In this document: in pieces, positions 9,427-63,770 of the stretch
How positions within the stretch are numbered: position 1 is the stretch's first letter
Layout of the letters: each line of letters begins with the position of its first letter
DNA from: Closterium sp. NIES-65
Lineage: Eukaryota > Streptophyta > Zygnematophyceae > Desmidiales > Closteriaceae
Length of the DNA: 64,000 bases
Assembly: GCA_948144175.1 (NCBI GenBank)
Contig: CANXME010002012.1
Location: 62,001 to 126,000 of the forward strand
Direction: 5' to 3'
The notes under the pieces: model-generated
The model's input: the letters and a program-made list of their open reading frames with translations, nothing else
What the model was told of the DNA's origin: nothing
Database searches by the model: none
Position numbers and translations under genes: made by a program

Positions 9427-12400
9427 TCACATCACCACCACAAGAAGAGCATCCGGAACAAGTTTGGACAGGGCCAAATCTCCCCCCATATGCAACCAAT
9501 CAACCTTGAGCTCTTGCTTTTTGTATGCATTGTTACTTGCCCTCTCCTCTTTCTCTTCAACTGGCCGTTGCATTTCAACCTCACTGTTTTCACTGCTTAA
9601 TGTCTCCCAACCCTCCTGCTCTCCATCCAAAAAACTTCTGCCCTTCGTGCATGTTCCCCGCAGACCTTCCTTGCTTATCGTCCCCGTCACCACCTCCAAA
9701 CCCCGGCCTACCACAAAAAGACGATTGTTACCATCCGCGGCCATGCGCAGGGGTGGGTGGAGGAAGAGGGGCAAAGGAGGGCCGGTGACCAGCTGCCACT
9801 TGTCAGTAATTGGGCAGTAGGAAAAGAGCCTGGCGGCAAGGGATCGCAGGAATTAATGGGATGGATGGGGGAAGAGAGGAAGGGGGGAAGGGAGGAGGTG
9901 GTGATTGAAGGGAGAGGGTTTGAAAAGAAGTGAGACGAGGAAAACAAAGATGCGGTGGTGAGAAGGAGAGGACAAAATTTCGAACGAATGGGCAGATCAT
10001 TGGGAAAGACTTTTGAGGCGCCTCAAAAGAACGAATGGGCAGATCATTGGGAAAGGGGCAGATCATTGGGAAAGGGGCAGATCATTGGGAAAGGGGCAGA
10101 TCATTGGGAAAGGGGAAGCAAAACCGAACCTTCACCTGAAACAACTCACCTCCACCGCTTTCCGTGAAGGTGAGTTTTGAGACGTCTCACAAACCTCCAC
10201 CCCTTTCCATGAGAGAGAGGACGCCTCAAAACCTTCACCCTTTCCCATGAGAATGAGTTTTGAGACGTCTCACAAACCTCCACCCCTTTCCATGAGAGAG
10301 AGGACGCCTCAAAACCTTCACCCTTTCCCATGAGAATGAGTTTTGAGACGTCTCACAAACCTCCACCCCTTTCCATGAGAGAGAGGACACCTCAAATCCT
10401 TCACCCTTTCCCATGAGAGTGAGTTTTGAGACGTCTCACAAACCTCCACCCCTTTCCATGAGAGTCACAAGCATGCCATGCACCACTGCACTTCACCTTC
10501 TCCTGCTAAGTCTGAGTCGCTCTTGAGACTCTCAAAAGCGACCCATGAGAGTCATAAGCATGTCATGCACCATGGCATACCCTCCTGCCCATGCTCTCAC
10601 CCAACAACAAACCTCACAAGCCACCACCCAGCCCAGCACGACGGTACCCACACTGGTGCCATGACTCAACGCACCTCCATGCACCACAGATCACCGCGCA
10701 CGACCACCTCACATACCATTGGCACGCACCTGCGAGTCTTCCCATCATGCACCAGAGTGACAAGTGAGCCGTGCACCACAGCACTCACTCCAGTCCGCGC
10801 CCTAACCTGAACAGGACCACACCCCTGATGTCACCCACCAGCACCGCACAACACCGCCTTGAATGCCCCCACCCCGCACCTGCGAGTCTTCAACTCCTGC
10901 ACCAGGGAGTGATTTTTGAGAATCTAAAAAATCACCCACAAGGAGCACAAGCGTGTCATGCACCACCGCACACACTCGTGGGCATGTTCTTACCCAATCG
11001 GAGGCATGTGCGTACCATTCCCAGGCAAGCTTTCTGCACACCACAGCGTGACAAGGCACCTCACATGCCCTAGAACGCACCTGCGAGTCTTCCCCTCGTG
11101 CACCAGGGTCACAAGCGTGTCATGCACCACAGCACTCACGCCTGTCCATCCCTCCGCCATGCCTTCAGGCATCGGCTCCCACACTGCTGCAACGCCACTC
11201 CGCCCCACGCCTTGCCCTTCCGCCCTGCCCTGCCCCTCCGCCATGCCTTCAGGCATCGGCTCCCACACTGCTGCAATTCCACTCCGCCCCACGCCCTGCC
11301 CCACGCCCTGCCCCACGCCCTGCTCCACGCCCTGCTCCACGCCCTGCCCCACGCCCTGCCCCACGCCTTGCCCCACGCCCTCCCCCACGCCTTGCCCCAC
11401 GCCCTCGCCCACGCCCTGCCCCACGCCCTCCCCCACGCCTTGTCCCATGTTTTGCCCTTCCGCCCTGCCCTGCCCCACTCCCATGCCCTCTGGTCCTATG
11501 ATTTCTCCTCCTGCACTGCTTGCTTCCCGTCTACCCCCCTCTCCCCCCTCTCCTCCTCGTCCCTCTCCTTCTCCCAGTCCCCGGCCAATCAAAGCACCCC
11601 CGTGTCTCCTTTGACCTCTAAGCCCCTCCCTTTCCGTTTCCTGGATGAGCTTAGAAAGAGGACAGGAGAACCCACGGGGCGAGAAGTGAAACGGCCACTG
11701 CCACCCTTCCGTCAAAAAGAGGGTCTCTCCCAAACTCGCCGCCCCAAAGCTAGAAAATGCCAAAGGCAGCGGTGGGATGGACTGCCACGTGTCAGTCTCT
11801 GGTTGGTAGACTTCAGCTGATTTGATCTCCTCGAGCTCTGCTGCATTGCCTCCTGCCACTATTATTTTTCCACGGGCAGCCCAGGAGCCAAAAAATCTGC
11901 GGGGAGTGATGAGGTTGGCCAACTGGGTCCAGCGGGCAGTTTGAGGGTCGTACCTGAAATTGCGGATAGGGAGATGGAGAGGGGGGTGTGAGGAGGGTGG
12001 GGGGAGTGGGGGGACGAATAGGAATGGCAGGCGTGCTACAGCACATATAAAATGATGCCAGAGATAAATAAAGAAAAAGGAAGAGAAAACAAGCGAAGAT
12101 GTGGGAGGGGAGAGAGTCACGGCATAATTCAGTGACCAAAAAGCTGAACAAAAAACAAGATCTGTTAAACAAGCACGGAGGGCGTTATGCAATGCACATA
12201 AACAACCAACTCAGCTTACATGGGTGAGCAGAGCAGTGTGTCACTTCAAATCCAGTCATAGCCTCACCTTTTTGTTAACACAAACATGCACACACAAATC
12301 ACACCTGACTCGTGCAAAACCTTTTCTTTGCCCCTCACCTGAAAGTGTCAGCCAATGGAATTTTGCGGTCAGCCCCTGTTCCTCCAATCATGTAGAGACA

Positions 12401-13489
12401 CCTGTCAAGTCCCACACACCCCACTCCCGAGGCTTCCCATTGGCTAGTGCCACGTGGGTGAGGGAGTTTCCGCCATCCAGCGCTCTCTGCAAATGCGTGC
12501 CACTCGAAATGTTTTCTCGGCTGCCCGACTGCCCGGACGAACAGCCACGGCTCGAGGCGATTGGCTGCTGTTCGAAGGCGCAGGCAGCGGGGGCTGTCTA
12601 GAAACTCTTTCCATGCCTGGTTCACTTGCCTGGGAATAAAGGATACGGTGATGAGGTAGCGGGGGGCGAATAAAGGGATTGGGGGAGGAGGAGGAGAGGG
12701 AGACGAGCAAGAAGGGGCAGGTAATACAGTAACTAACATCGTCCCCTGCCCTTCCAAAACATAGGTGCAGCTCGGGTTCAACAAAGTTGCAACAAAGGTG
12801 GAACCAAAGTAACGGAAACAGGACTCTCTAAAAAAACGCACCCACCCACCAACCCACCCACCCATGCACACTCGATCGCCCTCTCCCTCTCCCTCTCATT
12901 CCAAACTCAAAATTCTGATCGACCAGACACACGCACACGCACGCATGCCATACCTGCATTGCTGTAGGAACGCTCGCGGAAGCCGGATGAGGCATAACTC
13001 CGCCACGTCATCTGGTAGCCCTGGAAGGAGAGGCTGCCACGTGGCACTACAGACGGAAAGCGCCTCCCCTTTGCGCTTACACAGGGGGCCGGCGCTCTGT
13101 TCATTTTGGAAGGCGCCGTGATTTTTGGGAGCGTAACTTCCGCGAGCTTCGCGGGCATGAGGTGTAAGCGGATTAACAACTGCTGACGTGTCTTGTGACA
13201 GAAAGTGAGTTGACGGATCGGCTACTACCGGCTCGTGTGACAATCTGACAAGATGTCGTGCCTCGAAGTTCTGCACGGCGCGAGCCGTGCTAACGTCAGA
13301 CGGCTGCTGTGGGGGCGCCGTCTGCTGCAGCCGGCTAGCCGCCCATTTCCGCCAGTTGACGGCCGTCAACTCGCCGAAGACAGGTCCTGATTTTCCGACG
13401 GGGCTGTGCGGAAGATTCGACGCCAAAATTTGTGAAGATTGCGACGCGAGAGCGGGGCCGTCGGGGTTATCGACTACAGCGGATGACAT
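9427..13489 (-). CDS. F-box/kelch-repeat protein
   Basis: Exons read on the minus strand are 13489-12954, 12629-12339, 11953-11676, 11186-11081 and 9829-9427, all phase-compatible with GT-AG ends, giving about 537 residues. If 11953-11081 is read as one exon the product is about 700 residues, with a Gly/Val/Gln repeat inside a kelch blade. The F-box is at ~153-195 (LPGLPDDVAELCLIRLPRAF, then VNQAWKEFLDSP). Kelch blades follow: MIGGTG, YDPQTARWTQLANLITPRRF, VYQPETDTWQSIPPLPLAF, FLTEGWQWPFHFSP, EGWTGVSAVV, then LFSYCPITDKWQLV and NNRLFVVGRG in the last exon. The order matches plant F-box/kelch proteins, substrate receptors of SCF ubiquitin ligases; the substrate is unknown. The first ~150 residues have no recognised domain. 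The C-terminal ~75 residues after VVGRGLEVVTG are unlike the usual family end, so the last exon end is uncertain. Confidence 0.8.
9983..10117. repeat. Palindrome flanked by exact 26-bp copies, then a 19-bp tandem repeat
   Basis: A perfect 20-bp palindrome, CTTTTGAGGCGCCTCAAAAG, occupies 10010-10029. It lies between two identical 26-bp copies starting AACGAATGGGCAG (9983-10008 and 10030-10055). The second copy continues into about four tandem 19-bp units (AGATCATTGGGAAAGGGGC) up to 10117. It lies in the last intron of the F-box/kelch gene. Confidence 0.9.
10145..10465. repeat. 83-bp tandem array with palindromes between ~41-bp half units
   Basis: TTTTGAGACGTCTCACAAA recurs from 10175, 10258, 10341 and 10424, an exact 83-bp period. 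Midway in each unit is a second, half-lost dyad (GAGGACGCCTCAAAA). Between dyads lie similar ~25-bp segments (CCTCCACCCCTTTCCATGAG or CCTTCACCCTTTCCCATGAG), so the true unit is a short segment plus a palindrome. The array is in the last intron of the kelch gene. Confidence 0.9.
10456..11080 (-). repeat. Multiple decayed copies of a kelch exon edge
   Basis: Sequence coding the VVHDTLVTLV / GKTRR end of kelch exon 4 (11081-11140) recurs in decayed form at about 10460-10490, 10548-10577, 10730-10790, 10875-10990 and 11081-11140 (parent). Palindromes 10516-10542 and 10909-10935 lie between or inside copies. All lie downstream of the parent exon on the coding strand, in the final intron. Confidence 0.75.
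11183..11460 (-). repeat. 12-bp minisatellite and copy of kelch exon start
   Basis: A run of GCCCCACGCCCT-like 12-bp units fills about 11281-11455. Beside it, the VWEPMPEGMAEG-coding exon start with its TTGCAG acceptor is present twice (from 11186 and again about 70 bp upstream on the coding strand). This supports an intron here rather than a coding insertion. Confidence 0.7.
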
Positions 13490-14980
13490 TGGCGCCGGGT
13501 TTCAGCGCGCCGCGCCTTGACGATGCCCGCGCGCCGAATGGAACCTCAGGAACGGCTGCGGAGGGAGAAACTAAAAATGGGCTGATTAATCGTGAAGGGA
13601 CGCCGAAATGAGGAACAGGAGAAAGTGGAGCTACTAATGAGCAGTGCTTTTTTATATTTGCCTCTGAGCTGAGATGTTTGAGATGGATGGGGAGTTCGGG
13701 AATTTGGGAAACAGGAAAGAACGAGCACAGGGGGTGAATAGAACATAAACGTCAAATGACGACTGGCGAGAATGGTCTGGTTACCAGTTCTGTTTGATGC
13801 AAATGTACGAGTGGCTGATGCTCCAGTCATATGTCATTTACGAAGCGTGATTTGAAATTTGGTCCAATAGGAAACTTGATGCTTCTGTCGAAATTGCAAC
13901 CAGAGACGAAAAGCCTTGCAAGGGGATGATATGTGTCGTGCGACTCGCCCTGAGATTGCCGAAATAGTCGCTGACGGTGACATGCACAGGCTCAGACAGG
14001 TCTCTGGATCGTGAATGTGACGGACTGACTAGTTTGTCAAGAACAAAATAATGGTTCCAAGTATTTCTGGGGAGAGTGAGGAAGCTATGAATATGTGAAC
14101 CTTTGAGAGTGGAGAATCTCTGAATCATTTCCATCACTTAGACAAACCTTTTAGCGTGGATACGAAGAACCTGTCAGGCACATGCCACATGGCTCCAGCA
14201 CACATCCCGCCACGCGGCATCCAGTCAGCTTTGTGATCGTGTGGACGGATCCATCCGCGTTGACAGAATCTGGACAGCCACACACCGTCTCCACGCCTCG
14301 TCATCCATTCACATCCAAAATCCATCAACCGTGCAAGAAAACCACTATCTCAAATTAATGACCGTTCGATTCAGGAAGGGCGCTTCCGTTGGAGAATACT
14401 CACCCTTCGTTCATATCCAACATCCATCCTAGAATGAATTGGAGAAGCGCGTGTTCAAGCCGACGTACTAGCAAAGCAAGTCTCAAAATAGGTGCCACAT
14501 GAGTTGGAGAAGTGCGTGTTCAAGACGAGGTACAGCTATCGCTATTCGCAGCCTGTGTAAATCGAAAAAATTGGGGATCGTTTTGCTTCGCGAGACGTCT
14601 TATTGAACGTCTCCTCTCGATCTGGTTTTAGAACCCGCGGGCATGACAAGAGTAGGCAAAATTAGGACCAGAAACACACACCGAGGCACTAATCAGCTTC
14701 AAAGCGTTAGCGACGTTTACGGAGAATAGAAGCCCGCTACCGCACGCCAGCTTCGCTCCATTCTGCTGCATTGTGCGAGCCGCGTGCCCACATTGCTAGA
14801 TAGACTACCGTGCGGCAGCTTTGCTCTATTTTTCTTCACAACCAAACTCAGCAGTCCCCAAGAGCCTTCTCGCACGCACGCCAGGAACGTATCGCATCCT
14901 CTTACATCCGAATTCGCTTAAAGCGGAAACCTGCGCAACGTCATCTCGTTAACCACCCTCAGGCTGCATTAGAATCAGCC
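13490..14980. other. Divergent intergenic region (F-box gene / rubredoxin gene)
   Basis: This 1.5-kb stretch separates two divergently transcribed genes and would carry both promoters. No coding exon is identified. A 69-bp tandem duplication is visible (GTTGGAGAAG-type motif near 14433 and again near 14502). A dyad with arms GAGACGT / ACGTCTC lies at 14592-14613. Confidence 0.5.
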
Positions 14981-17507
14981 ATGGCTTGCGCAGTCCCCCT
15001 CACTCACTCCCTCGCGTCGGCTCCTCACGCCGTCGCCGCCGCCGCGTCTCCCGCTGCCACCAAGCCGAAATCCGCGTCGCCGCTTCTCGCAGGCAACGTG
15101 GGGCTCCGCTCGTCCCGCGGCGCGATCTCGTCGGCGGCTGTCAGCGTGTCTGGCGCGGCACCGTTGGCACTAACGGGCGGCGCCTCCGGGCCGCCGCGTG
15201 TGACTATGGCGAGCGCGTACATCTGCCGGGACTGCGGGTGAGCGCTTGCGTTAATTTGTTGCCGTGCCGCCTCGAGGCGACTCAGATTACGTATCAGCTT
15301 TTTATTTTCTTCGTCTCAAATAGCGTGGAATTCGCATCCGCATGTCGCTTCCCCCCTCCCCCGCCCCACCCCTCTTCCCCCCGCCCTTCCACATGCGACC
15401 CTGTCTCCCTCCCTGCGCGCGTCTCTCTCGCTCCGACGATCCGCAGATACATCTACAACTCGCGGTCGCCCTTCGAGAAGCTTCCAGACACCTACAAGTG
15501 CCCAGGTGAGGCGCCTCGAAGAATTAGACTCCTATTATTGCCCAAAATGCGACCTTTTGTGGAAAATTCCACGTGCGTTTCCGCCTCCTTTCGAAACCAT
15601 TTAGTAATTTAACAAAAATCCATACACGATATTGACCACAAGATCTGTGGTTTAAGTTCCGTGTTGAGCTCCTTTTGCGATGCCGAAGCTGTCTATACGC
15701 GATACTGCTAATCGATAACCCAATTGATGTGCTCCGTCACCCCAGCACTCCTGTCGTTGTAAGTTGCATTATTGTTTTCAGATACCAGAGTGGTAACAAG
15801 TGCGCCTCTCACCTCCGCAACGCCCTTGTTCCATTCTTTGTGTCACTGTTGAGCTTTTTTTCGAAAGTGACACAAAGAGCAGTAAAGCGTGCGCAGCTCC
15901 TTCTCTCTAGCACCTTCCGCAGATCTCCGGTACTTTCGTCTTGCGCATAACATTACGAGAAATGTGCCCCTTGCACCCACTAAAAGATCTCACCCGTCTC
16001 CCACCCCCGCTCCCTCTCCCCTCCCCTCCCCTTCTTCCGCACTTCCCGCCCCCTTCCCCGCCTGCGCCCCCGCTATTCCTCCGCCTCCCCCCCCCCGCCG
16101 TACACTGCGCCCGTGGCCTCAAATCCAACTCTTCTCCGCACTCTCCCCCTCCTTCCCCGTCCCCCCCCCATAAAGTGTGCTCCGCCCCCAAGCGCCGCTT
16201 CAAGCCGTACACTGTGCCCGTCGTTCTCACCCACTCTCCCCCTCCTTCACCCGTTCCCCCCCTTCCCCCTCCCACGTCCCCCCGTCCGTCCCCCTCACCC
16301 TCCGCCAGTGTGCTCCGCCCCCAAGCGCCGCTTCAAGCCGTACACTGCGCCCCTCGCCTCAAATCCAACTGCTCTCACCACTCTTTCCCTCCTTTTACCC
16401 CTGCCCCGCGCCTTTCCCCTCTCCACCTTTCTCCAGTGTGCTCCGCCCCCAAGCGCCGCTTCAAGCCGTACACTGCGCCCGTCGCGCGCAACGCCAACGA
16501 CCTGGCGGTGCGGAAGGCGCGCAAGGCGGAGCTGCAGGGCGGGGGAGGCGGGTGAGTTGGGGGATGGGGCGAGAAGGGGGTGCAGGAAAACGAGTGACAA
16601 CGGGGGGAGAAAGGGGAGTGACGGGGGAGTGAGGAGGGAAGGGGACGTGTGGGAGTGACGGGGGAGTGAGGAGGGAAGGGGACGTGTGGGAGTGACGGGG
16701 GAGTGAGGAGGGAAGGGGACGTGTGGGAGTGACGGGGGAGTGAGGAGGGAAGGGGACGTGTGGGAGTGACGGGGGAGGAGCCGTCAACCACTCCTCTCAA
16801 AAGGTGTCGTGGGCCTTCTGAACGTGGCGAACGTGGGAGCGTAGGGGGAGTGTTGTAACGTGGTGAACGTGGGAGCGTAGGGGGAGTGTTGTAACGTGGT
16901 TACTTTTGAATCGACTCAAAACAGAAATCACCTCGGGGGGGGGGGGGGGGGGGGGGGAAGAGCCGTCAAACACGCCTCTGAAAGAGGCAGGAGTCAGGGC
17001 ATGGAGAGGTGCAGAGGAAGAGCGGAGGTGGTGGGTATGCAGAGGGGAAAGACCCACCTCTCCTTGCCCTGATTCCTGCCTCTCCTCTTCCTGATTCCTC
17101 CTGTTTCTCTACTTGTGCTGTCTCAACAGTTTCCCCTCTCTTCGACCACCTCCTTGCCATTCAATTCATGCTGCTCCCTCATTCCCATACTATCCTACCC
17201 CCCCACCGTCACCCTTTTCCCCACTGCCCTGATCTTGAGGAGCCGTACAATTACCCTACCTCCTTTCCATTTGATACCTCATTCCCTACTAACCAACCGC
17301 CCATTCATTGCTACCTCCTCACCCTTATCCCCACTCTCCTGTTCCCCATCCTCCTACTTCCGCATCCTCCACCCCCCCATCTCTGTCTCCCCATCCTCCC
17401 CCCTATATCCTCGTTCTCCCGCTACCAGCGCCTCGCTCCCAGTGCTGGTGGCGGGCATGGTAGCAGCACTTGTTGGTGTAGCTGTCTACCTTAACTCGGC
17501 CTACTAA
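14981..17507 (+). CDS. Plastid-type rubredoxin with C-terminal membrane anchor (four exons)
   Basis: Exons are 14981-15237, 15447-15505, 16437-16551 and 17429-17507; phases and GT-AG sites agree, giving 169 residues ending with TAA. Residues 1-~75 are Ala/Ser-rich, acid-poor and transit-peptide-like. The rubredoxin domain has iron ligands Cys82, Cys85, Cys104 and Cys107 (YICRDCGYIYNSRSPFEKLPD, then YKCPVCSAPKRRFKPY). A short basic linker leads to one hydrophobic segment (~146-164, LPVLVAGMVAALVGVAVYL) at the end. This is the plan of membrane-anchored plant and algal rubredoxins; one relative, RBD1, is tied to photosystem II assembly. Thylakoid location and an electron-transfer role are inferred from the family. 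The start of exon 3 has two more acceptor-bearing copies upstream, but only the third copy reads into the conserved tail. Confidence 0.88.
15836..15877. repeat. Hairpin with 12-bp arms in rubredoxin intron 2
   Basis: Arms CTTTGTGTCACT and AGTGACACAAAG are perfect complements separated by 18 bases that include TTTTTTTCGAAA. The loop differs from the TTTTGAG family, so I list it separately. Confidence 0.85.
16097..16436 (+). repeat. Upstream copies of rubredoxin exon 3 start with acceptors
   Basis: The exon 3 start (acceptor AG then TGTGCTCCGCCCCCAAGCGC) occurs three times, from 16176, 16319 and 16437. A partial copy of its 3' part is near 16097. Each copy carries an AG acceptor in the same phase and a pyrimidine tract. 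The first two run into CTCAAATCCAACT intron-like sequence without a donor, so the copy at 16437 is taken as the real exon. Confidence 0.85.
16617..16777. repeat. 37-bp minisatellite in rubredoxin intron 3
   Basis: Four full units plus a partial one begin at 16617, 16654, 16691, 16728 and 16765 (AGTGACGGGGGAGTGAGGAG start). They are almost identical. A poly-G run of more than 20 bases follows at about 16936-16958. Confidence 0.9.
16773..16985. repeat. Duplicated segments around a TTTTGAATCGACTCAAAA dyad
   Basis: Similar segments (GGAGCCGTCAACCAC at ~16777 and AGAGCCGTCAAACAC at ~16959) and a duplicated ~50-bp unit at 16818-16900 flank the dyad at 16904-16921. The arrangement matches the palindrome-at-junction pattern seen elsewhere in the window, though the copies are less exact. 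Confidence 0.6.
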
Positions 17508-20340: not shown

Positions 20341-20344
20341 GGCT

Positions 20345-21624: not shown

Positions 21625-23633
21625 TCACATCACCCGTTTCACCTTCCCACACAGTGCGTCCACGCTCTTAGCATGACCTGTGGCAGCGAACCAGCCCAAC
21701 GTAAATTGCATATTCATTGAAGCGGTAAGCCCTTCCTTTTCCACTGGGCCGTTTTCATACGCTGTACTAAAGGTGTAGCGCTTGCGGCGACCAGCCTTGT
21801 CGCTTGTTACGTTAACCCAGGTCACCGGAAAACAATTTATTTGTAAGCAGGAAGTGCCGCTGCCTATGAAAGGGCTGGTTCCCCCAGATTTTAAGTTCAT
21901 CGCGAGCACTCTGTAGGAGACATAGTAAGTAGTTGCAGAGTACCTGTAAAGCGGACACGGGAGTTGGCAGTCTCGGAAAGGCGTGAGGACATGAGAGTAC
22001 CATATCAGTCATGCTCCCTCCCAAGCTTCAAATCGCAAGCAAGACCCCAGCGAGATCAGCCAAAATCAGACCAAAATCAGATGAAAATCAGCAAAGAACG
22101 GCCATAACAGAGGAGCATTGGGAGCACTTGCACCGGAGTGGAAAAATACGCTAGGTGATGAGCACAGGTCCACTGGAGGAGCCAGAAACCCGAACCCCCT
22201 TTGAGACTCGTTAGTGTCTGAGAATCCGCAGCATCAATTCCTCACTGATGGCTCACTAGTTCTTCCGCAAACGAGTTCTTACCTCGTCGCCTTTTGAGGC
22301 GTCACAAAATTTGAGACAGCATTGATTCCTCGCCTCACTGATGACTCACAAATTTTGCGGAACGAGTTCTTACCTTTTCGCCTTGATGACAATTTTCTCC
22401 GATGCTCCGGCGTCGCCCGTTACCTTTCCATTGGTCTTCGTAGGTGTCAACTTCACCAAGTATTTCACTGTATATGAAAAGGGAGGTGAGGGGGGGGGGG
22501 GAATAATGCTGGTGAGCCAATTAGGGTTGAGAAGATTCCCAACAAATCACACGTTAGCATTCGAGAAGCTTTTTTTTTTCAGTCAACTCAAAACACACCA
22601 ATCAGGGTGAAGAAAGATCTTTAGAAGCTGTGCTTCCATACAATGGCACTTTAGAAGCTGGAAACATCATCTGCAAGCATAATCATGCTTGCCGTGCGTG
22701 CAAGCAATCATTTGACTATGTTACTAAGGAGCGGCGCATGGAGTGAAGGCAAGCCGCGGCACTCGACGCTTTTTGAGTCGACTGGAAATGCATATCACCA
22801 AGCGTGCATTTAATTGATTAAATCCATGAGCAGCGCATTCAATCAAGGCGAGCTCATGCAATCAACTAAGGAGCAGCCTCTAAAGAAGGTTGCTTGTGAG
22901 ACGTCTCAACACCTACCGTCTTTCACGTTGTATGCGTGCAACAATCGACTAAGCCAAGAAGCAGGTCATGCAGTGAAGGCAAGCGGCACTCACTGACGTT
23001 CTTCCCTTTCCAAACCAGATACGGAAGATTGCTTGTGAGACGTGGCTTCAGGAGCACCTTATGCAAGGAAGGCAAGCTCATGCAATCGACGAAGTCAGGA
23101 AGCAGCTCTTTCAGTGAAGGCAAGCGGCACGACACTCACTGACGGTCTTCCCTTTTTTCACCAGCGGCTTGGACTGTGCGGCGAAAGGTACAACGGCGGC
23201 GCCGTTGCTCGGTGGGTCGAGTGGCGCGAGGGATGAAGCGGGGGACGCGCCGCCGGTAGTGAAGAGCGCCGCACCTGGAGGGAGGGAGGTAGACAGACAG
23301 GCAGACAGGCACGCACGCGGGCAGGCAGGCAGGCAGCACGAGAGAGCATGACCTTTGAGTCGACTTAAAAGGCAGGCAGGCAGCACGAGAGAGCATGACC
23401 CGCAAACGTCGACTCAGCCGCCAGTTTTCAAAAACCCTAAAAGTTATCCAGCGGTTGTGTCTGTCCGCGACTTGCTAAAGCAGCGCCGCTGAAAATTTCT
23501 CGCGTCATCTACAATGTGGCATGAACCGAGTAAGTGCAACACGAGTGGCACGAACTGAGAATCCACATGCTCACGGTTAGTAGTAGAAGAGCCGCTTACA
23601 GAGGAGGACGCAGAGGAGAAACGCGCGCTCCAT
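21625..23633 (-). CDS. Small secreted protein of unknown family (four exons)
   Basis: Minus-strand exons are 23633-23600, 23274-23140, 22467-22374 and 21943-21625; every junction is GT-AG and in phase, giving 193 residues. The start MERAFLLCVLLCAALFTTGG is a typical signal peptide, split by intron 1. The mature part has a Pro/Ala linker, then GKTVMKYLVKLTPTKTNGKV, a Lys-rich stretch (KIVIKAKRYSATTYYVSYRV) and a C-terminal part with three Cys (SCLQINC, ALCGK). Alternating polar and hydrophobic residues suggest a beta-rich domain. I do not recognise the family. Export to the cell wall or medium is inferred from the signal peptide only. Introns 2 and 3 carry copies of the exon 2 and exon 3 ends with donors. 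A retrotransposon lies ~50 bp past the stop. Confidence 0.62.
22225..22385 (-). repeat. Duplicate of exon 3 end of the secreted-protein gene
   Basis: The exon 3 end and donor (coding strand GGCGAAAAG|GTAAGAACTCGTT, 22362-22385) recurs at ~22267-22290 as GGCGACGAG|GTAAGAACTCGTT. Surrounding CTCACTGATG-type sequence is also duplicated. A TTTTGAGGCGTCACAAAA dyad (22292-22309) lies between the two copies. Confidence 0.75.
22855..23150 (-). repeat. Tandem copies of exon 2 end of the secreted-protein gene
   Basis: The AAGGGAAGACCGTCA|GTGAG exon 2 end (near 23140) recurs as AAGGGAAGAACGTCA|GTGAG near 22993. A third, weaker unit is near 22900. Units of ~130 bp share GGCAAGC(T/G) and CATGCAATCGACTAAG-like motifs. 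A TTGTGAGACGTCTCAACA dyad occurs at 22894-22911. Confidence 0.7.
23324..23400. repeat. Palindrome between exact 30-bp direct copies
   Basis: Identical 30-bp copies (start GGCAGGCAGGCAGCACG) are at 23324-23353 and 23371-23400. Between them is only TTTGAGTCGACTTAAAA, which with neighbouring CC/GG forms a 21-bp dyad (23352-23372). It lies in intron 1 of the secreted-protein gene. Confidence 0.92.
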
Positions 23634-27781: not shown

Positions 27782-27808
27782 AGCACCCCCAGGCTCGGCA
27801 CCCCCAAG

Positions 27809-29656: not shown

Positions 29657-30922
29657 TCAGCGGGGGATCTCAGAAGCGTCAGGGAACTGCTGACGCCAAG
29701 CGTCCGTCAGGCGGCCAAAGCAGCGCCGGGTGGAGTGGGCACCCCCACACTGCTCACCCGCGCGGTCGCCGCTGCGAAGAACGTAGGTGCACGGGCTAAA
29801 GCCTCCACCACTCTGACTCTGCGTGTACCACTCACGGAGTTGCTGAGGCGTGGGGACGTCCCGAGCACGCTGCTGCTGGTGCTGCCGCGGACCACCACTA
29901 GAGCCGCTCCGCTGCGGGGCACTACCCCGACCAGCTCCACCTCCTCCGCCACCACCGCCTCCACCTCCGCCACTACCACCGCCTCCGCTCCCACCGCCTC
30001 CGCCGCCACCACCTCCGCCGCCGCTGCCGCCGCCACCGCCACCACTCCCGCCACCACTCCCACCGCCACCCCCACTCCCTCCGCCGCCTCCACCGCCACC
30101 TCCACCGCCCCCGCCAGCTCCACCCGCGCCCTTGCCCCCCTTGCCCTTGCCAGGGCGGCGTCTCCCGCTAGGGGCAGACGCCGCGCCGACCGACTCAAGA
30201 CCAAGCAGGTCGGCAGCAGCAGCAGAGGCAATAGAGGGCAGCAGGGGGGAAGGAGAACACCCCTCAAAGATGGGGGTGCGCGGGTCACCACGAGAGGCTC
30301 CTACAGCGACTATGCTCTTCTCCGCCGCTAGGAGGGCCTTCTCGAGGAGGTTGACAGTGAGGGTGGTGGGACAGACTGAGAGGAAGTGGTCCCTGACTAC
30401 GCGAAGGGAGTGAGGGAGACGAGTGACTATGTAATAGAGAGCAATGTACATGGGGGGGGGGTTCTTGGCGCAGAGATCAGCAGCAAGGGCGGCGCGGTAG
30501 CGAGTGTCACTAGTGCGGAGGTGCGTAATGAGGTCAGCGATAGTGGGAAAGGCAGTGAGATCAGGAAAGAGGTACGGTAGCATGAGACGGCTTTGTGCAG
30601 CAGTGGCAGGAGAAGAGTAGTGCGCAACGACAGCGTCGTACAAGGTCTGAGCACTCTTGTACTGACTAAAGTGCGCGCGCTCAGTGGTGGGCAAGTGGCG
30701 ACGCACAGCAAGACGTGCAGCAGCATCGCGGGTGGCCCACTGAGAGCGAACAGTGGGGTCAGCATCAGCAGCAGGAGCAGGAGAGGCGCCAGAGGTGAGG
30801 TCAAAGAGGGAAAGACCGTCCGCCCTATCGCACTGTAAAAACAACTGCAAGTCGTCGACCCAGACCTCAAAGTCAATGGCTCGACCCTCAGCGTCAAAAG
30901 CGAGGACACTGGGGGTAGCCAT
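29657..30922 (-). CDS. Element 2 gag protein
   Basis: An intact 421-residue frame starts MATPSVLAFDAEGRAIDF. Residues 1-~200 are the helical copia gag domain (VWVDDLQLFLQ, DLTSGASPAPAAD, LITHLRTSDTRYRAAL, MYIALYYIVTRLP). A ~100-residue poly-Gly/Ser stretch follows, then a CTYVLRSGDRAGEQCGGAHS-type Cys/His segment at the place where a zinc knuckle is usual; spacing differs from the standard CCHC. It would assemble particles around the element's RNA. Confidence 0.88.
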   Translation of the reverse strand: MATPSVLAFDAEGRAIDFEVWVDDLQLFLQCDRADGLSLFDLTSGASPAPAADADPTVRSQWATRDAAARLAVRRHLPTTERAHFSQYKSAQTLYDAVVAHYSSPATAAQSRLMLPYLFPDLTAFPTIADLITHLRTSDTRYRAALAADLCAKNPPPMYIALYYIVTRLPHSLRVVRDHFLSVCPTTLTVNLLEKALLAAEKSIVAVGASRGDPRTPIFEGCSPSPLLPSIASAAAADLLGLESVGAASAPSGRRRPGKGKGGKGAGGAGGGGGGGGGGGGGSGGGGGSGGGSGGGGGGSGGGGGGGGGGGSGGGGSGGGGGGGGGGGGAGRGSAPQRSGSSGGPRQHQQQRARDVPTPQQLREWYTQSQSGGGFSPCTYVLRSGDRAGEQCGGAHSTRRCFGRLTDAWRQQFPDASEIPR

Positions 30923-35430: not shown

Positions 35431-35431
35431 G

Positions 35432-55437: not shown

Positions 55438-58400
55438 CTAAGCCTCGCATGTGGGGCTGAGCTGGATCGCCTCTGGTTCATATGTTCCATTGAGAATCTG
55501 GGGGGCGGGCCCGTACGCTCTCACCACTGCTGCACTATTGGTCTGCAGACAAAAGGTTCAACGATATGGGAGGGCAAGAGAAGTTGAGGCTTGGGAAGAA
55601 AGAACATGCGAGCGAGAAATTAGAGCTGGAAGTGAAGAACGAAACCAATAGTTAGGATAAGCGGTATGAAAATTGAGGTGCAATGACACAGGGGATTAAA
55701 GAGATTGAAGGGAATGAGAAGAAAAGGCAAGAGACAAGGTAGCGCTCCGGCCGGGAAAAGGTAGTACCGAGTTGACAGTAGGGATCCAGTTGGCTTCGAG
55801 TGATTGGCCGGGTGAAGTGGGTTGAATGTAGATGGTGAGAGTGCCGTCTGGGTTGTACTGTGCAGTGAGGGAGGGAACAACACGTGTGTGGTTGCACAGT
55901 GGTTGGTTGGGGGGAGGCAAGGAAATTGTACGTGTTTTGAGTCAAACTGAACACGATTCAGATAATGAATGTTGTGCAATCAGCGCTGTAGTGCCGTGAG
56001 GGCAGCCGCTAAGGTTGAGTGGCATAGGGATTAGAATGAGGGCAGGTGGGAAAGATGGAAGGTGGAAGGAAATAGGTTGCTTGGAGAAGTGAGCATGGCA
56101 TTGCAGAGAAGGGGGACATGATGGATTGGATCGCACAAATGGAACGCGCTTGGAAGCATGGTAAAGGGTGACGGATGTGTTTTGCGGCAACTAAAAAACG
56201 GATTGTAAACAGTTGTAAACGGATTGCAGGCCTTGTAAGCGGTGGGGGGACAAGAAGGAACCGAGAGGAGGGATGGGGCTGAAGCATTGCACCAGGTTAC
56301 AGACCAAAGGAGCCCTGGAGAAGGGATTGTGAAGGACAATGCATGCGAACGTGCAACCAGATGTGGTGTGCGGTTGCCTGCACCGAACATGGGGACCTCT
56401 TTTAATATTGTAAGCAGTGTCAGCTACCAGAATGAGTCGAACAGGTTGTGCAAGCAAGAGAGACTCACAATTCAGGCCTGGCACGTGGTCGCGCACACCA
56501 AACTTGGTGACTCCCTCCAGGAGATTGAGATTGGGAGAATTGTAAACAGTGACAGACCAGAAGGAGTTGACTGGGGGAGAGGTGAGGCACAGAAGCCTTA
56601 CTCTAGAGGAGAGACGATGATTGTCGATGAACGTACCAGCAGTCCTGGCATACGGTCCCCAACTCCAAACTTGCTGACTTCCTCCAGAAGATTGAGGTTG
56701 GACGCATTGTAGATGATGACAGACCAGAAGGAGTCGACCGGGGGAGGGGTGAGGCGCAAGCAAGAAAGGCTCACCAAAAGGCCTGGAGTGCGGTCGCCCA
56801 CGCCAAACTTAGTGACTCCCTCCAGGAGATTGAGGTTGGACGCGTTGTAAATGGTGACAGACCAGAAGGAGTCGACTGGGGGAGGCGTGAGGCGCAGACG
56901 GAAGCACTGGGAAAGAGGAACGAACGTATATGGACGTACCAGCAGGCCTGGAGTGCGGTCGCCCACACCGAACTTAGTGACTCCCTCCAAAAGGTTGAGA
57001 TTAGAAGCGTTGTAAATGGTGACAGACCAGAACGAGTCGACCGGGGGAGGGGTAAGGCGCAGGCGGAAGCAGCGGGAGCCTTGGAGACGCGTGAAGGGGC
57101 AACGTGGGGTGGGCATGGAGGAGGGGAAGATGGAGGGCGGCTGAGGTTGCATGGTGGTTGAGTTGTTTGCAGCTGGGGAAGGGAGACTGGGAGGCTGTGG
57201 AAGAGACTCGGTTCCAGTAGCATTGCTGCTAGCTGTGGTGTTGCTGCTAGCTGTGGTGGTGGTGTTTTCAGCGCGGATGTTGCTCATTGTGCTGCTGCTG
57301 CGGACTGTGGTACTGTCTGGAGGGTCGATGGGGTTAATGGGACGAGCTGTGACGTTGCGTGCTGCTGTGATGTTGCTCGGTGAGGAGGGGGGATTCATAG
57401 GAATGCCGGGAGGAGTGGTGGCGTTGGGAGGTGCTGTAGCGTTGGGAGAGGCTGTGGCGTTGGGAGAAAAGGTAGGTGGAATGGTGGGAGGAGTAGTGGT
57501 GTTGGTTGCATTTTTAGCAGAAGGTTGTTGGGCTGCCACAGATGGGGTGACCTGGAGGACGGAGGAAAAGGAGGGGATGAAATGGGCAGGGAGGCAAGAT
57601 AAAAAGAGATCTGTGTTGGAAGCAAACCAAGTCGGAGTGGTGGGAGGAGTGGTGGTGTTGGTTGGATTTGTAGCAGAAGGTTGTTGGGCTGCCACGTGAC
57701 CTGGAGGAAGGGGGAAGACGAAGGATAGTCAGAAAGGAAGGAAGGAAGGAAGGAAGGAAGGAAGGAAGGAAGGAAGGAAGGAAGGAAGGAAGGAAGGAAG
57801 GAAGGAAGGAAGGAAGGAAGGAAGGAAGAAAGGAAGGTGAGGAAATAGATCACTTCTGTGGGTAACAGCCTGCAATGCCTTTCTCAATTGCAAGTGAGAG
57901 CAGCCCAATGAAAAGCAGAGAGGGAAGGGTGGCAGCTCACCGCAGCGAGGAAGGTGAGGAAGTAGACCACTTCTGTGGGCGGCAGCCCGCCAATGCCGCC
58001 CGGGGCTGTGAGCGTGGCTCGGTAGAGAAACTCCGTGTTAAAGTCATGGTCGAGGAGGGAGCGAGATGATGCCCAGAAGTTGTCACTGGGAAGAAGTGGA
58101 TCAGGGTGGTTGGAGAGGAAAACACACAGAGCAGAAGAGGATAAGAAGAGTGGCAAGGTGATGGCTTGGTAGAGGAACTAGGTGTTGAAGCCATGGCCTA
58201 GGAGCGTGCGCGACAAGGCCCAGAAGTTCTCACTGGGAAGAGGAGAAGTCAACCGAACAGTTGGAGACATTAAAGGAATGGAGGGAGCAGAAAACACACA
58301 GAGGCAGGAAGAGGGAGAGGAGGATGGTGAGAGGGTGGCTCGGTAGAGGAGGAACTTGGTGTTGAAGCCATGGCTTAGGAGATAAAATTAATATTTTGAA

Positions 58401-61400
58401 ACGTCTCAAAACATCACTTTTATCATGAGGATCTTGGTGTTGAAGCCATGGCACAGGAGGGTGTGCAACGATGCCCAGAAGTTCTCACTGCGAGAAGATG
58501 TGTCAGATACATGGGAACCAGAAAACCAGAGGTTAGCACAGGTGATGGGGAGAATAGCAAGGGGGTGGCTCGGTAGAGGGTGCGAGACGATGCCCAGAAG
58601 TTGTCACTGGGAGATGACGTGGCAGGTTCTCCTGGGCACTCACCTTTGAATGAGTGAGTGATTCGATCTGAATGACCACATTTGCTATCGTGATGAGCGT
58701 GTCGGTTGTCTGCCTTGCTGCCTCCAGCGCTGTAGCATCTGGGCACTCACCTTTGAATGAGTGAGTGATTCGATCTGAATGACCACATTTGCTATCGTGA
58801 TGAGCGTGTCGGTTGTCTGCCTTGCTGCCTCCAGCGCTGTAACATCCGGGCACTCACCTTTGAATGAGTGAGTGATTCGATCTGAATGACCACATTTGGT
58901 ATCGTGATGAGCGTGTCGGTTGTCTGCCTTGCTGCCTCCAGCACTGTAACATCCGGGCACTCACCTTTGAATGAGTGAGTGATTCGATCTGAATGACCAC
59001 ATTGGCCGCCCTGATGAGTGTGTTGTCGGTTGCCTGCCATGCTGCCTCCAGCGCTGTAACATCCGGGCACTCACCTTTGAATGAGAGATTCGTTGATCTG
59101 AATGACAATGTTCGCTGCCGTGATGAGCGTGTCGGTTGTCTGCCTTGCTGCCTCCAGTGCTGCTGCCTGCTGCTGTGTCACGCTGTAGGGGTCAAAGCCG
59201 TACTGCTGGGTGACGTTGATGGAGGCGAGCTGAGGGAGGGGGGGAGAGAGGGGACGAGCAAGGGAGGGCGGAAGAGAGGGAGAGGAAGGACGTTAGAAAG
59301 AAAGGGAGTATGTGACACTATAAGCCGTGCTGCTGGGTGAAGTTGATGGACGTGAGGTGAGAGAGGGAGGGGACGAGCGAGGGAGGGCAGAAGATAGGGA
59401 GGGGAGTGTGTGACACCGTGAGCTGAGCTGAGACGCGAGGGAGGGAGGGGAGGGGAGGGTGGGTGAGAGGGTGTGGGCACGGATGGGAGTGTGAGAACTG
59501 TAAACGTCTAAGCCATACTGCTGGTCTGAGACATCTCAAAACACTTCTGTTTTCACGTTAAACGGTTGCCAGTTGAGAAATGAGGGACGGGCAGAGAGGA
59601 GCGGGGTGGGCAGAGGGGTACGTGTGTCACCCTGTACAGCGGTTTGGGGTTCAAAACAATACCAGTATTTACAGAAGGATAATGCTGGCGGCAGTGTCCG
59701 CAGCAGCTACCTTCTCACCTCGAGTAAGGAAGCCCTGCCTGAACTCTCACCGTACCTGTAAAGGTCACTCTTTCACAACCCATATCCATACGGACCTTGC
59801 CCTCCAACCTCTCTCCGTGCTGCACCAGCACCAGCACCAGCACCAGCACCAGCATCATCACCAGCGCCAGCAGCATCACCAGCACCAGCACCAGCACCAG
59901 CACCAGCACCAGCACCAGCACCAGCACCAGCATCATCACCAGCACCAGCACCAGCACCAGCATCAGCACCAGCACCAGCATCATCACCAGCACCAGCACC
60001 AGCACCAGCATCATCAACAGCACCACCATCATCACCAGCACCACCATCAACATCAGCACCACTATCATCACCAGCACCACCATCAACATCAGCATCAGCA
60101 TCAGCCTGCTGCCCCCGCTCGTCTCACCATGCGCACGACGCGGTTGTTGGCGCTGTTGTTGAAAGGCGGGTCGGATATGCTACACCGTGCTACCATTTAA
60201 TCTATCCGAACAATGCCATATCCACATCAGCATGCCCACCATCCATCTCACCATGCGCACGACACGGTTGTTGGCGCTGTTGTTGAAGGGCGGGTCAGCA
60301 TGCGGCACTGCACTGCTCTACCATTTACCCTCTCCCTCCCATGCTTAACCTGCCCGTCTCACCATGCGTACGACGCGGTTGTTGGCGCTGTTGTTTAAGG
60401 GCAGGTCCCGCTGAAGGCCCTCGCCAATGAGAGTCATGCGCTGCATGGGCGAGTAGGATGGAGGGCGACGGGAAGGTGGAATGATTCCTTCATTAGACTG
60501 GAGCGGAAAAAAAAGGAACAACAAGCTAGAAATCTGGCTTGAAATGGGATGGTTGAGGAAGGATGAAGATGAACAAGGGAAGGAAGGAAAGTGGGGGGTC
60601 AAATCACGGCTGATCACCTGCACGGCCACTGCTCACCTAGGCAGCAGAACTCACACTAGGGAAGGGAGCACAAGGGTGGGTGCTGCTGACCTGGAGGGCG
60701 TAGGAGAGGTTGGAGCTGGGGAGGTGGGGATTGGGGAGGGTGTTCCTACTAGTGCAGCAAACTTGGGAAAGCATGGCTTGGAAAGAGAAGGCCAGTTGCT
60801 GCTGACCTGGAGAGCCTCGGAGAGGTTGGAGCTGGGGAGGGGCGGATTGGGGAGGGGCGGAACTGCAGACCCGCCTAGTGCCTCTGAGAGTGACTGTAGC
60901 GAGACTTGACTGTAGAGGTCGAGCACTGTAGCAATGTCGTTGGACACGTTTTCTGACACGACCACTCGCATCAGCAGGAGCGCGTCGTTCGTAGGGGACT
61001 GTGGGAAATGGGGGACAGGGAAACGGGAGGGAGGGTAAAAAAATCAGGGAAGTTTGGCATAACCACTCGCATCAGCAGGAGAGCGTCGTCTGTAGGAGAC
61101 TGTGGGTACGGGGAGACGGGGGTAAGGGAGAGAAGGTAAAGAAAGCAGGGAAGTTTTGCACGACCGCTCGCATCAGCAGGAGAACGTCGGCCGTGGGGGA
61201 CTGTGGGTAGGGGGGAAGTAAGGGGGAGAGGGTGGGGAAAGGGATGGAGGAGGGTTTGCACAATGATTCACAATGCATGGTCAGCGCATCTGTGGCGACT
61301 GCCATAAACACCAATGATTGCCTTAAGTCAGTCACCCAAACACCGGCCTAGCGAATACAACCCCAACAGACAGAACTTCATAAATTACCCATTCACGAAC

Positions 61401-63539
61401 ACATCACTCCCACACATGTCACTCACTCGTATCAACGTGGGCGCTAGGTCACCAGGCAGCTCCCCAGCCCAGTTGGGCCCAACTAGAGTGAACGTATTGG
61501 GAGCAAGGGTCAATGAAACGACGCCATTATTGGGAATACTGGTAATCGCACTCACCCGTATGACGGTAGGTGCAAGGTCACCAGGCAGCTCTCTAGCCCA
61601 GTTGGGCCCGACTAGAGTGAACGTGTTGGGGCCTGGTCCGTTGGCTCGGCTGCCGTTCACACTGTAAGCCGGGCCATAGGTTTGGAAGAACCCGATGCTG
61701 CATCCAGAGAAGGAGAGCGAGAATGGGTGGGCGGATCGAGATAAACAGAATCTTGAAGTCGCCTCACAAGCCATACTAGTGGGTCAGTTCCGGGCCCAGC
61801 CTGGCCCGTTGACTCGGCTGCCGTTCACACTGAATGCCGGACCATACGTTTGGAAGAATCCAATGCTGCCACCACGAGGAAGGATCTGTGGTAGGGATTG
61901 AGATGGAGGAGAGCTGAATGGGTCGCTGACGTTCACACTGAATGCCGGGCCATATGCCTGGAAGAACCCGATGCAGCGAACAGAACAAGTGGAGGAGCCT
62001 ACAGAACAGATTGGAGTAAGGAAACGGGGGTTAGACGTCCAGTCAGTGGCCTGGTCTGGGCCATAGGTCCCACAAAGGAGCCTGACACCACCGTCCTCAC
62101 CTGTAGCTGTAGCAACGTTCAACACCACCTATATGACTGCGTCCCTCACCTGTAGTAGCGGCCTTGGCCCATGTTGGGCGTTCGGAACACCATGGGCTGG
62201 TCTCGCAGGTAGAGGAAGGCCCCTCCATACACCGTGTCCACATTGGGGAGCACCACGCCTGGAAGGGAGAAGGGAGGTGGGGAAAGGAAGAGGAGGAGAT
62301 GTGTTTCAGCCTCCCCCATACACCGTGTCCACATTGGGGAGCGCCACGTCTGGGTGGGGTGGGGTGGCAGGGGGGAGAGACGATGAGAGTGATGCAAAAA
62401 AGAAGTGAAAGGTGGATGGAGGAGAGGAAGGCTCCTCCATACACCGTGTCCACATTGGGGAGAGCCACCGCTGGGTGGTTTGAAGGGGAAAAGAAAGGAG
62501 GAGAGAGAGGCGTTGTAATGTTGACGGGGGTGTGCGTCATCCTCTGCATCATTTGAAGGACACAGAAGGATGCATAAGCCACTGGAGGTGCCGACAACAG
62601 CGGTGGTGTTGGCGAAGGAAACAGTCGCATCAAAAGTCACTCTGAAATGAATGATGCATGAGAGGGAGGTCGCAAAGAATAGGCGTGACGCCGTGACTCA
62701 CTGGTGGTGCCGACAACGGCGGTGGTGTTGGCGTAGGAGAAGGCGTTGAGGGCAGCACGGGTGGCCTGCTGGCGGAAGAAGGTGACCAGAGGAGACCCCC
62801 ACACAAACGCCTCCTGCCCCACCGTGAAGTGCTGCACCGCACCCCCCTCCGTGCCATTGCCAGCCCCAGTGAAGTTACCAGCTCCAGTGGGGTTACCAGC
62901 TCCAGTGGGATTACCAGCAGCAGTGGGGTTACCAGCATCACTTCCATTTCCACTGCCTGGAGGGACGATGCCGAGGGGGACTGTGGTGTTACCAGTGCCA
63001 CTGATGCTGCCACCACTGCTGTTCCCACTGCTGTTACTGGTAGGACCAGAGGTAGCACCATCACCACTGCTAGGAGGGACGATGCTGGGGGAGACTGTGG
63101 TGTTACCAGTGCCACTGATGCCAACACCACTGCTGTTCCCACTGCTGTTACTTGCAGGACCAACGGTACCAGCAGCACTGGCGCTAGTGCCATCACTGGC
63201 AGCACCACTGCTGCTCATCTCCCCAGGAAAAGATCCTGGCACACCAGGCCCCTGCTGAAGCCCTCGTCCCCCTCTCCCTACTCTAACCCCATCCATCAAT
63301 CCTCCACCCCTCTGCTGCAGTCCGCCCCGAACAGGTTCCACAGAAGCAGAGAAGGCGCAGATGGGGAGAATCACCAGCAGCAGCAGCGACAGCAGAGCGA
63401 CAGGCAACGCTGTGACTGTAGGCAGGCGTGACTTAAGCGAACTCGGCTGTAATCCTTGCCCCGTGACCTCTTTTCCTAGTCGCAAAGGGACCGTGGATAT
63501 CAGGTCTGAGACACTGTTCATGATGGCAGATGGTGTCAT
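55438..63539 (-). CDS. DUF1254-DUF1214 protein with N-terminal membrane anchor (ten exons)
   Basis: Minus-strand exons are 63539-62702, 62258-62150, 61697-61556, 60998-60807, 60497-60363, 59229-59075, 58085-57941, 57551-56940, 55857-55768 and 55542-55438. All are GT-AG and in phase, giving 840 residues ending with TAG. Residues ~41-63 are hydrophobic (signal anchor or signal peptide). A Gly/Ser/Asn/Thr linker rich in N-x-S/T sites follows. The DUF1254 part starts EAFVWGSPLVTFF, then VVLPNVDTVYGGAFLYLRDQ, GRYYSIGFFQTYGPAYSVNG, TFTLVGPNW and IRSPTNDALLLMRVV. The DUF1214 part has FLYRATLTAPGGIGGLPPTE, then after a ~150-residue Asn/Thr/Pro insertion PPPVDSFWSVTIYN, FGVGDRTPGLLYNPDGTLTI, EANWIP and VRAYGPAPQILNGTYEPEA. 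The domain pair is common in bacteria; its reaction is not established. An extracytoplasmic location is inferred. Nearly every exon has partial copies in adjoining introns. Confidence 0.85.
56270..56900 (-). repeat. Serial copies of the DUF1214 exon 8 end
   Basis: The exon 8 end (56940-57070, coding PPPVDSFWSVTIYN...GVGDRTPGLL plus GTACGT donor) recurs downstream at ~56780-56900 (GTGAGC donor), ~56650-56765 (GTACGT donor) and ~56480-56600. A strongly decayed copy is at ~56270-56320. Divergence grows with distance from the exon: the first copy is almost identical, the second has several replacements and the third loses motif residues. An exon 8 start copy lies on the other side, at about 57640-57700. 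Confidence 0.88.
57729..57835. repeat. (GGAA)n microsatellite
   Basis: About 25 uninterrupted GGAA units lie in intron 7 of the DUF1254 gene. A copy of the exon 7 end (GGAAATAGATCACTTCTGTG, about 57840-57880) abuts it. Confidence 0.95.
58140..58625 (-). repeat. Copies of DUF1214 exon 7 start with a palindrome at one junction
   Basis: The exon 7 start (CAG|TGACAACTTCTGGGC, 58085) recurs in decayed form near 58230, 58480 and 58600 with its downstream sequence. At 58393-58414 the dyad ATTTTGAAACGTCTCAAAAC lies between two copies of a 27-bp segment starting CTTGGTGTTGAAGCC (58355-58381 and 58433-58459). Confidence 0.8.
58636..59066 (-). repeat. Four 107-110-bp tandem copies of DUF1254 exon 6 end
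   Basis: Units begin at 58636, 58743, 58850 and 58957; the parent starts at 59067 in exon 6. Each unit carries, on the coding strand, a TTACAG acceptor-like site, 86-89 bp coding ALEAARQTTDTLIT...IQIES, and a GTGAGT donor. Only ~21 bp lies between one donor and the next acceptor, too short for a normal intron, so the units offer alternative donors rather than separate exons. Confidence 0.93.
59820..60112. repeat. (CAGCAC)n / CATCAT microsatellite in DUF1254 intron 5
   Basis: About 290 bp of CAGCAC hexamers are interrupted by CATCAT, CAACAT and CACCAT. Frames through it read as poly-His/Gln or Ser/Thr repeats and are not taken as coding. Copies of the exon 5 end with donors follow at 60123-60170 and 60241-60290. 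Confidence 0.93.
60650..62640 (-). repeat. Copies of DUF1254 exon 1-4 edges in introns 1-4
   Basis: Copies seen on the coding strand: exon 1 end (SYANTTAVVGTT) at ~62585-62640; exon 2 start (LPNVDTVYGG with acceptor) at ~62320-62355 and ~62430-62470; exon 3 start (IGFFQTYGPA) at ~61800-61870 and ~61925-61980; exon 3 end (FTLVGPNWAGELPGDLAPT plus donor) at ~61425-61510; exon 4 start (SPT..ALLLMR with acceptor) at ~61070-61105 and ~61165-61205; exon 4 end (SSNLS.ALQ plus donor) at ~60690-60725. Start copies always lie upstream and end copies downstream of the parent exon. Confidence 0.85.
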
Positions 63540-63562
63540 GGAGTTGCCTGCTGTTGGTGGAG

Positions 63563-63770
63563 CACCAGAGACCAGAGATGCTGATAATGTCCGATCTTAT
63601 TTCTAGCTGGATTAACCTTTGAGAATTCTCAAAAGTCACCAGGGACCAGAGATGCTGATGATAGGAGCTGTGCGGTCCCCTGTCACTGGATTGGCTTTTG
63701 AAAATCTCAAAAGACAAGAGTCCAGAGATCTGATGAGGAGGAGTTGTCCGGTCTGCTCTCAAGGTGCTGT
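63563..63770. repeat. Palindrome-separated tandem duplication upstream of the DUF1254 gene
   Basis: Three related units start near 63563, 63637 and 63714 (CACCAGAGACCAGAGATGCT type; the first two end CTGGATT). Between units lie dyads CTTTGAGAATTCTCAAAAG (63617-63635) and CTTTTGAAAATCTCAAAAG (63695-63713). The first unit overlaps the 5' leader of the gene. Confidence 0.9.

Follow-up and report, generated by a model that had tools for sequence, protein, structure and literature searches.

In Volvox carteri, short palindromes are dispersed through introns and intergenic DNA, form hairpins with loops of 3 to 5 bases and are thought to be selfish; they average ~50 nucleotides, often have TAAA or TTTA loops and are mainly organellar, some lying in the nucleus as inert organelle copies (PMC2670323). 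The LIMP palindromes of Lobosphaera incisa mitochondria, with 19 copies and AACCA repeats, are tied to rearrangement (PMC4524435). Introner elements of Amoebophrya have inverted repeats of 8 to 20 nucleotides and direct repeats of 3 to 5 nucleotides and have spread in introns (PMC7789003), and duplications shorter than ~100 bp have been explained by nicks on opposite strands followed by fill-in (PMC8355091). Here we describe a family of short palindromes in a 64-kb stretch of Closterium sp. NIES-65 DNA (contig CANXME010002012.1, positions 62,001 to 126,000; hereafter the window), many of which stand between two direct copies of the adjoining sequence. We give roughly even odds (probability ~0.5) to the reading that this is an abundant nuclear micro-insertion family, in which a ~30-bp self-complementary unit was inserted with a 25- to 75-bp target duplication at staggered breaks that were filled in. 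In support stand the specificity of the sequence, its copy number, the copies at its edges in sampled DNA, one empty site, and covariation of its two halves.

A genome-wide count, proposed in an earlier sequence-only reading of the window, found exact TTTTGAGNNNNCTCAAAA at 30,327 places in the 874-Mb parent assembly (874,075,685 bp), compared with 4 for the reversed control and ~1.2 expected from the base composition of the window. TTTTGAGNNNNCTCAAAA is self-complementary, and its forward and reverse counts refer to identical places. Within the window, 19 matches with at most 2 mismatches were found, against 0.19 in dinucleotide shuffles. Some 2-mismatch matches are doubtful, and four of the 19 form one 83-bp array. 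None of the 19 lies in the main retrotransposon stretch at 24.9-52 kb, as had been noticed from the sequence. A match at 22894 was set aside; its left half recurs downstream in apparent coding sequence.

Flanking duplication was scored within a nonrandom sample of 364 kb, comprising the window and 30 further stretches of 10 kb, many of which are repeat-rich contig ends. Matches in this sample number 15 when one mismatch is tolerated and 26 when two are; for 104 permuted arms the corresponding means are 0.09 (maximum, 4) and 0.98 (maximum, 11). The 15 are distributed among the window (10), stretch L020 (4) and stretch L024 (1), with 0 in the other 28 stretches. L020 (G000:C200:1-10000) carries what we take, from its reading frames, to be a proline-pathway aldehyde dehydrogenase gene. 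Among the first 50 genome places listed, 14 belong to three arrays whose units recur every 37, 53 and 42 bp, and the places listed for TCGA centres include additional arrays with steps of 63, 64 and 77 bp. Because tandem arrays add copies, independent insertions must number fewer than 30,327. These regular tandem arrays of exact palindromes, some of at least five units, lie in C6, C10, C16 and C18.

As to an organelle source, 20 kb of organelle contigs contain one 1-mismatch match, located at the start of a cox3-like frame in L015 (G000:C20:1-10000), 10 kb of a 152-kb contig that is mitochondrial by the cox3, nad1 and cob read from its frames; L017, 10 kb of a probable plastid contig that is a quarter N, contains zero. 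The frames of L015 also contain short repeated motifs. No two-unit runs of TTTTGAG or TTTAGGG, which would suggest a telomere-like source, occur across 354 kb of the sample, and a scan of the window for known RNA families returned no match at the gathering score.

The full palindrome, GGTGAYTTTTGAGNNNNCTCAAAARTCACC, measures ~30 bp and consists of an 18-bp core and outer arms that are often incomplete; the four-base centre described from the sequence alone stands, but the palindrome is longer than first thought. A perfect copy of GGTGAYTTTTGAGNNNNCTCAAAARTCACC at L020 2688-2717 is predicted to fold into a 13-bp DNA hairpin. When both flanks of 18 members were pooled, the outer-arm consensus was GTCACC on either side, with A at position 4 in 25 of 36 arms, 15 to 19 of 36 in agreement at the remaining positions, and TCACC in 7 of 36 arms where 0.7 would be expected; these members were hand-picked, taking in one array member and two 2-mismatch members flanked by clear copies and leaving out the L015 match. 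Members differ in the length of outer arm kept, and some have extra bases. Their centres comprise 3 to 5 bases, and an interior is absent.

The two halves of the palindrome covary. Of 108 within-locus comparisons across the outer six positions, 54 are complementary, whereas shuffled partners give 37.6 (P = 0.0002; the set includes 63617 and 63696, which are not independent). The centre had been described as variable and often self-complementary, and this is borne out: among four-base members whose arms have no more than 1 mismatch, 10 of 12 have self-complementary centres, as do 12 of 14 in a larger hand-picked set. Genome-wide, the 24,964 NCGN centres include 13,080 TCGA and 5,047 ACGT, and the square roots of these two fractions sum to 1.17, where independent sides allow at most 1. 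Since the sides are not independent, centre variants would have been copied as a symmetric whole, inherited from symmetric founders, or half-templated. Separate addition of a tail to each end was considered and is unlikely, as the halves agree at the variant centre base beyond independence.

The layout of copy, palindrome and copy had been reported at five window loci, and all five are confirmed with small corrections (Table 1). The copies at 9983-10055 and 23324-23400 are exact as described, and measure 27 and 31 bp rather than 26 and 30 bp; the locus at 63563-63713 indeed holds two palindromes and three units, the third of which extends to 63761. Edge copies were scored by comparing the DNA that ends at the left edge of each palindrome with the DNA that starts at its right edge, allowing at most 3 bases of slack and internal gaps, with a score of 14.5 as the pass threshold. 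All matches with a spacing of 3 to 5 and at most 1 mismatch were included (n = 20), of which array masking drops four; the mitochondrial L015 match was retained among the remaining 16 and counted as a miss. Nine of the 16 score at least 14.5. Among unmasked random positions this score is reached by 21 of 600 in the same loci and by 18 of 800 across all loci, and among other hairpins with 7-bp stems by 3 of 199. By arm quality, 5 of 5 members with perfect arms pass, as do 4 of 11 with one mismatch. Copy lengths vary from ~22 to 75 bp; seven duplications fall at 27 to 35 bp and others at ~55 to 72 bp by edge-anchored alignment, the gapless parts of which can be shorter. At L020 5218, exact 29-bp copies adjoin an 18-bp palindrome on both sides.

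A converse screen of the 364 kb for interrupted duplications (spacer, 12 to 60; copy, at least 20; array-like cases removed and neighbours merged) returned 49, in 11 of which the spacer, 15 to 57 bp long, contains the palindrome or its core. Two of these 11 were assigned by eye, their spacers being shorter than the pattern. A stem score of at least 6 was reached by 10 of the 11 palindrome spacers, the eleventh scoring 5, and by 0 of the 38 others. Judging from these 38, short duplications with no recognisable palindrome arise often in this genome. Introns at L020:2300-7000 are likewise crowded with partial exon copies, including a 54-bp stretch present five times, and several of these lack a palindrome; local duplication in this gene is frequent beyond the palindrome family.

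One site in the sample has a firm empty state. The L020 unit at 4847 holds a 35-bp stretch twice around a 19-bp palindromic insert (at 4898), whereas in the paralogous units at 4645, 5106 and 5326 the stretch is single and the palindrome is absent. Palindrome and duplication are thus missing together, the comparison being between paralogous rather than allelic units. Only this empty site is firm because comparisons elsewhere fall short: at L020 5218 a related unit at 4960 is without the palindrome but aligns only partially across the site, and at L020 3735 the alignment to the upstream exon is unclean over the left half.

Of the explanations put forward in the sequence-only reading, the one best matched by the data is a very small mobile palindrome that causes duplication of its target, in view of the copy number, the single sequence and the one empty site. 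Under the micro-insertion reading, the target would be nicked on opposite strands 25 to 75 bases apart, the palindrome would bridge the two break ends, perhaps via a few matching bases, and filling in of both overhangs would produce copy, palindrome and copy in a single event. Because the unit is self-complementary, either break end could pair with or be ligated to one and the same sequence. A hairpin stage during insertion is our guess. Small tandem duplications were reportedly traced to staggered-break fill-in by Vaughn and Bennetzen in 2014. A dedicated or self-promoting process is favoured by the high copy number, by the specificity of the sequence and by how rare alternatives are. More tentatively, and with the odds somewhat against it, the palindrome could be the smallest known nuclear mobile sequence, ~30 bp and interior-free, relying on dedicated cutting with a stagger of ~30 bases, integrating through a hairpin stage, seeding arrays and reaching tens of thousands of copies.

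Several observations weigh against the micro-insertion reading. The 14.5 threshold was picked after the scores were known, and 7 of 16 members fall under it, though 63617 and 58394 among them have wider-gap duplications; flanking copies at 10914, 16904 and 22576 in the window are absent or weak. Several of the nine passing members are not strictly flush, with extra bases separating copy and palindrome at L020 4559 and at window 10521 and 22292. With arrays unmasked, ~10% of 1200 random positions score as high. Local alignment of 110-bp flanks placed most good loci at a tail fraction of ~0.1; this score, which is hardly informative because the genome is rich in tandem repeats, was replaced by the edge-anchored test, later with arrays masked. 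The 30-base form (at most 8 mismatches, 4-base centre) has 21 matches, and 60 permuted arms average 1.9 but reach a maximum of 15. Tandem arrays enter the genome-wide counts many times over, and a few symmetric founders could also yield the genome-wide covariation. Neither an enzyme nor a donor nor a polymorphic insertion came to light. End joining is favoured by the variable duplication lengths and by the extra bases at junctions, and to our knowledge the duplication length is more variable than the stagger of any known transposase. With such varied lengths and additional junction bases, the loci resemble staggered-break repair more closely than the work of a fixed-stagger transposase.

A rival explanation for these data is that the palindrome is filler at break repair: ordinary staggered breaks would have been filled in, with a common palindromic oligonucleotide or genomic copy captured by chance and the palindrome having no role in break formation. 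Fill-in of staggered breaks is, in the available text of PMC8355091, an established source of small tandem duplications, and the variable duplication length, the extra junction bases (L020 4559, L024 7168, window 10521 and 58394), and outer-arm bases that by eye sometimes match the target (junctions at L020 2694 and window 63617) are all consistent with capture during repair. Chance capture sits poorly with the use of a single sequence, none of the 38 other interrupted duplications having a comparable palindromic spacer, and 30,327 exact copies would require an abundant and specific donor. Filler should also occur without duplication, and every perfect-arm member has a duplication, whereas among the 11 one-mismatch members only 4 pass the edge test. 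Repair-type filler may still form part of the explanation, and we regard this rival as possible but doubtful. Considerably less probable is that the palindrome came first, as a fragile site whose flanks were duplicated by replication slippage or template switching. Arrays of palindrome plus copy, such as window 10148-10464 and those with steps of 37, 42, 53 and 63 bp elsewhere, are in keeping with such a process, and palindromes may promote later expansion; the three L020 4898 paralogous units that lack both palindrome and duplication, however, contradict at that one site the earlier suggestion that a hairpin provokes the duplication, and the 3-of-199 pass rate of other 7-bp-stem hairpins argues in the same direction. 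Repair through hairpin-capped ends, also suggested from the sequence, would after replication be expected to give inverted flanks, and snap-back at a chromosome end predicts the same; the observed flanks are direct.

Arms of 7 to 13 bp around a short centre would also look like a recombinase site or like the ends of an element joined together. The palindrome might then be the scar of a larger element, either an inverted-repeat transposon or one mobilised by a recombinase, that came in with a long target duplication, later departed and left its ends joined. A search of the 364 kb for longer inserts with such ends and matching flanks gave six pairings, none clear: three lie inside the 10148-10464 array, two end at 22351 beside the 22292 member, and the sixth is a 1,288-bp pairing in L022 with one mismatch per end. 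We know of no transposon superfamily that produces duplications of 25 to 75 bp, and we consider such a scar improbable. Chance, an artefact of assembly and a conserved motif for protein binding are very unlikely explanations. The shortness of the motif is what favours these; the count of 30,327 against 4 speaks against a chance origin, the divergence of copies at some sites (79% at 63607-63753; 91% at 58349) against an assembly echo, and the accompanying duplication against a binding motif.

The window itself is Closterium nuclear DNA, as judged from protein matches to the open reading frame at 6265-7359 (minus strand): 15 matches were found, 12 to Closterium and 3 to unnamed eukaryotic transcripts, the top one with 82% identity over the entire query. 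Copia-type retrotransposon domains lie at 19-30 kb, and frames in line with them continue to ~51.5 kb. Palindromes and copies in the window are collected in Table 1. In the gapless comparison at the 10456 locus, 30 bases separate the left copy from the palindrome. Two further structures were seen. At 14434-14533, a 35-bp interrupted duplication has a spacer with half a palindrome (GTCTCAAAA) and is perhaps a decayed member; at 15835-15880, a T-rich centre is flanked by a perfect inverted repeat of 12 bp (TCTTTGTGTCAC/GTGACACAAAGA) that falls outside the family.

Table 1. Palindromes and flanking copies in the window.
Feature	Position	Strand	Detail
Two degenerate members in 27-bp tandem repeat	4440-4484		4440-4457, 4467-4484
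Left copy, exact 27-bp direct duplication	9982-10008	+	
Insert ACTTTTGAGGCGCCTCAAAA, 20 bp	10009-10028		exact core 10011-10028, centre GCGC
Right copy, exact 27 bp	10029-10055	+	last 19 bp continue as tandem array to 10115
Palindrome-plus-copy array, 83-bp period	10148-10464	+	palindromes 10175, 10258, 10341, 10424; centre ACGT
Left copy	10456-10506	+	gapless 30 bp at 93% (10456-10485 vs 10543-10572); longer with gaps
27-bp palindrome GTCGCTCTTGAGACTCTCAAAAGCGAC	10516-10542		core 10521-10537
Right copy adjoining palindrome	10543-10588	+	
Extended palindrome AGTGATTTTTGAGAATCTAAAAAATCACC	10908-10936		no flanking duplication found
Palindrome, 1 mismatch, centre TCGA	16904-16921		no flanking duplication found
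Left copy, diverged	22240-22290	+	
Palindrome, 1 mismatch, centre GCGT	22292-22309		
Right copy, diverged, ~22 bases off palindrome	22333-22381	+	
Palindrome, 1 mismatch, centre TCAA	22576-22593		flanks: weak 20-bp similarity only
Left copy, exact 31-bp duplication; edge bases common to insert	23323-23353	+	
Palindrome CTTTGAGTCGACTTAAAA, 2 mismatches to consensus, centre TCGA	23353-23370		
Right copy, exact 31-bp duplication	23370-23400	+	
Left copy, 33 bp at 91%	58349-58381	+	
45-bp insert, outer ATAAAA/TTTTAT inverted repeat	58382-58426		core palindrome 58394-58411, centre ACGT, not flush
Right copy, 33 bp	58427-58459	+	
Unit 1 of triplicated stretch	63563-63616	+	
Palindrome, 1 mismatch, centre AATT	63617-63634		
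Unit 2 of triplicated stretch	63637-63695	+	
Palindrome, 1 mismatch, 3-base centre AAT	63696-63712		
Unit 3 of triplicated stretch, diverged	63713-63761	+	

If the sample is typical, a sequence below transposon size has been inserted many thousands of times, each time doubling host DNA, in the nuclear genome of an alga closely related to land plants. If true, this would be a new route to short duplications, to arrays and perhaps to exon-fragment copies, as well as a natural test system for the path from staggered break to tandem duplication. We know of no mobile element of this kind. Miniature inverted-repeat transposable elements (MITEs) are noncoding and have inverted-repeat ends; they also have an interior, and their target duplications are short and constant in length. 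The Closterium family differs on both of the latter counts, with copies of variable length (~22 to 75 bp) and a centre of 3 to 5 bases, and no autonomous element with the ends of the palindrome was clear in the 364 kb. Introners share with the family inverted and direct repeats and a spread in introns, but their interiors are introns (PMC7789003, available portion), whereas the Closterium palindrome is interior-free, its direct repeats are far longer, and its spacers of 15 to 57 bp are below ordinary intron size.

Like the tandem duplications ascribed to staggered breaks, those in Closterium are direct, shorter than 100 bp and, at one site, absent from the empty state. They differ in that the same palindrome recurs in 11 of 49 interrupted duplications; the available main text of PMC8355091 describes no recurrent junction sequence and does not contain "filler" or "palindrom". 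The latter string is also absent from the available main text of a Closterium genome-size paper, which reports many duplicated genes (PMC10407611). No such family appears among the literature matches listed, whose coverage stops short of subscription papers and preprints. The earlier remark that no described nuclear element of this form is known calls for the qualification that Volvox nuclear DNA has organelle-derived palindromes (PMC2670323, available portion). That portion mentions no flanking duplication, unlike the situation in Closterium; the LIMP palindromes form a repeated family as ours do, are mitochondrial, and come without a description of target duplication in the available text (PMC4524435). 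As far as these portions go, the palindromes of Volvox, short and dispersed like those of Closterium, and of Lobosphaera are the nearest known relatives of the family described here (PMC2670323, PMC4524435).

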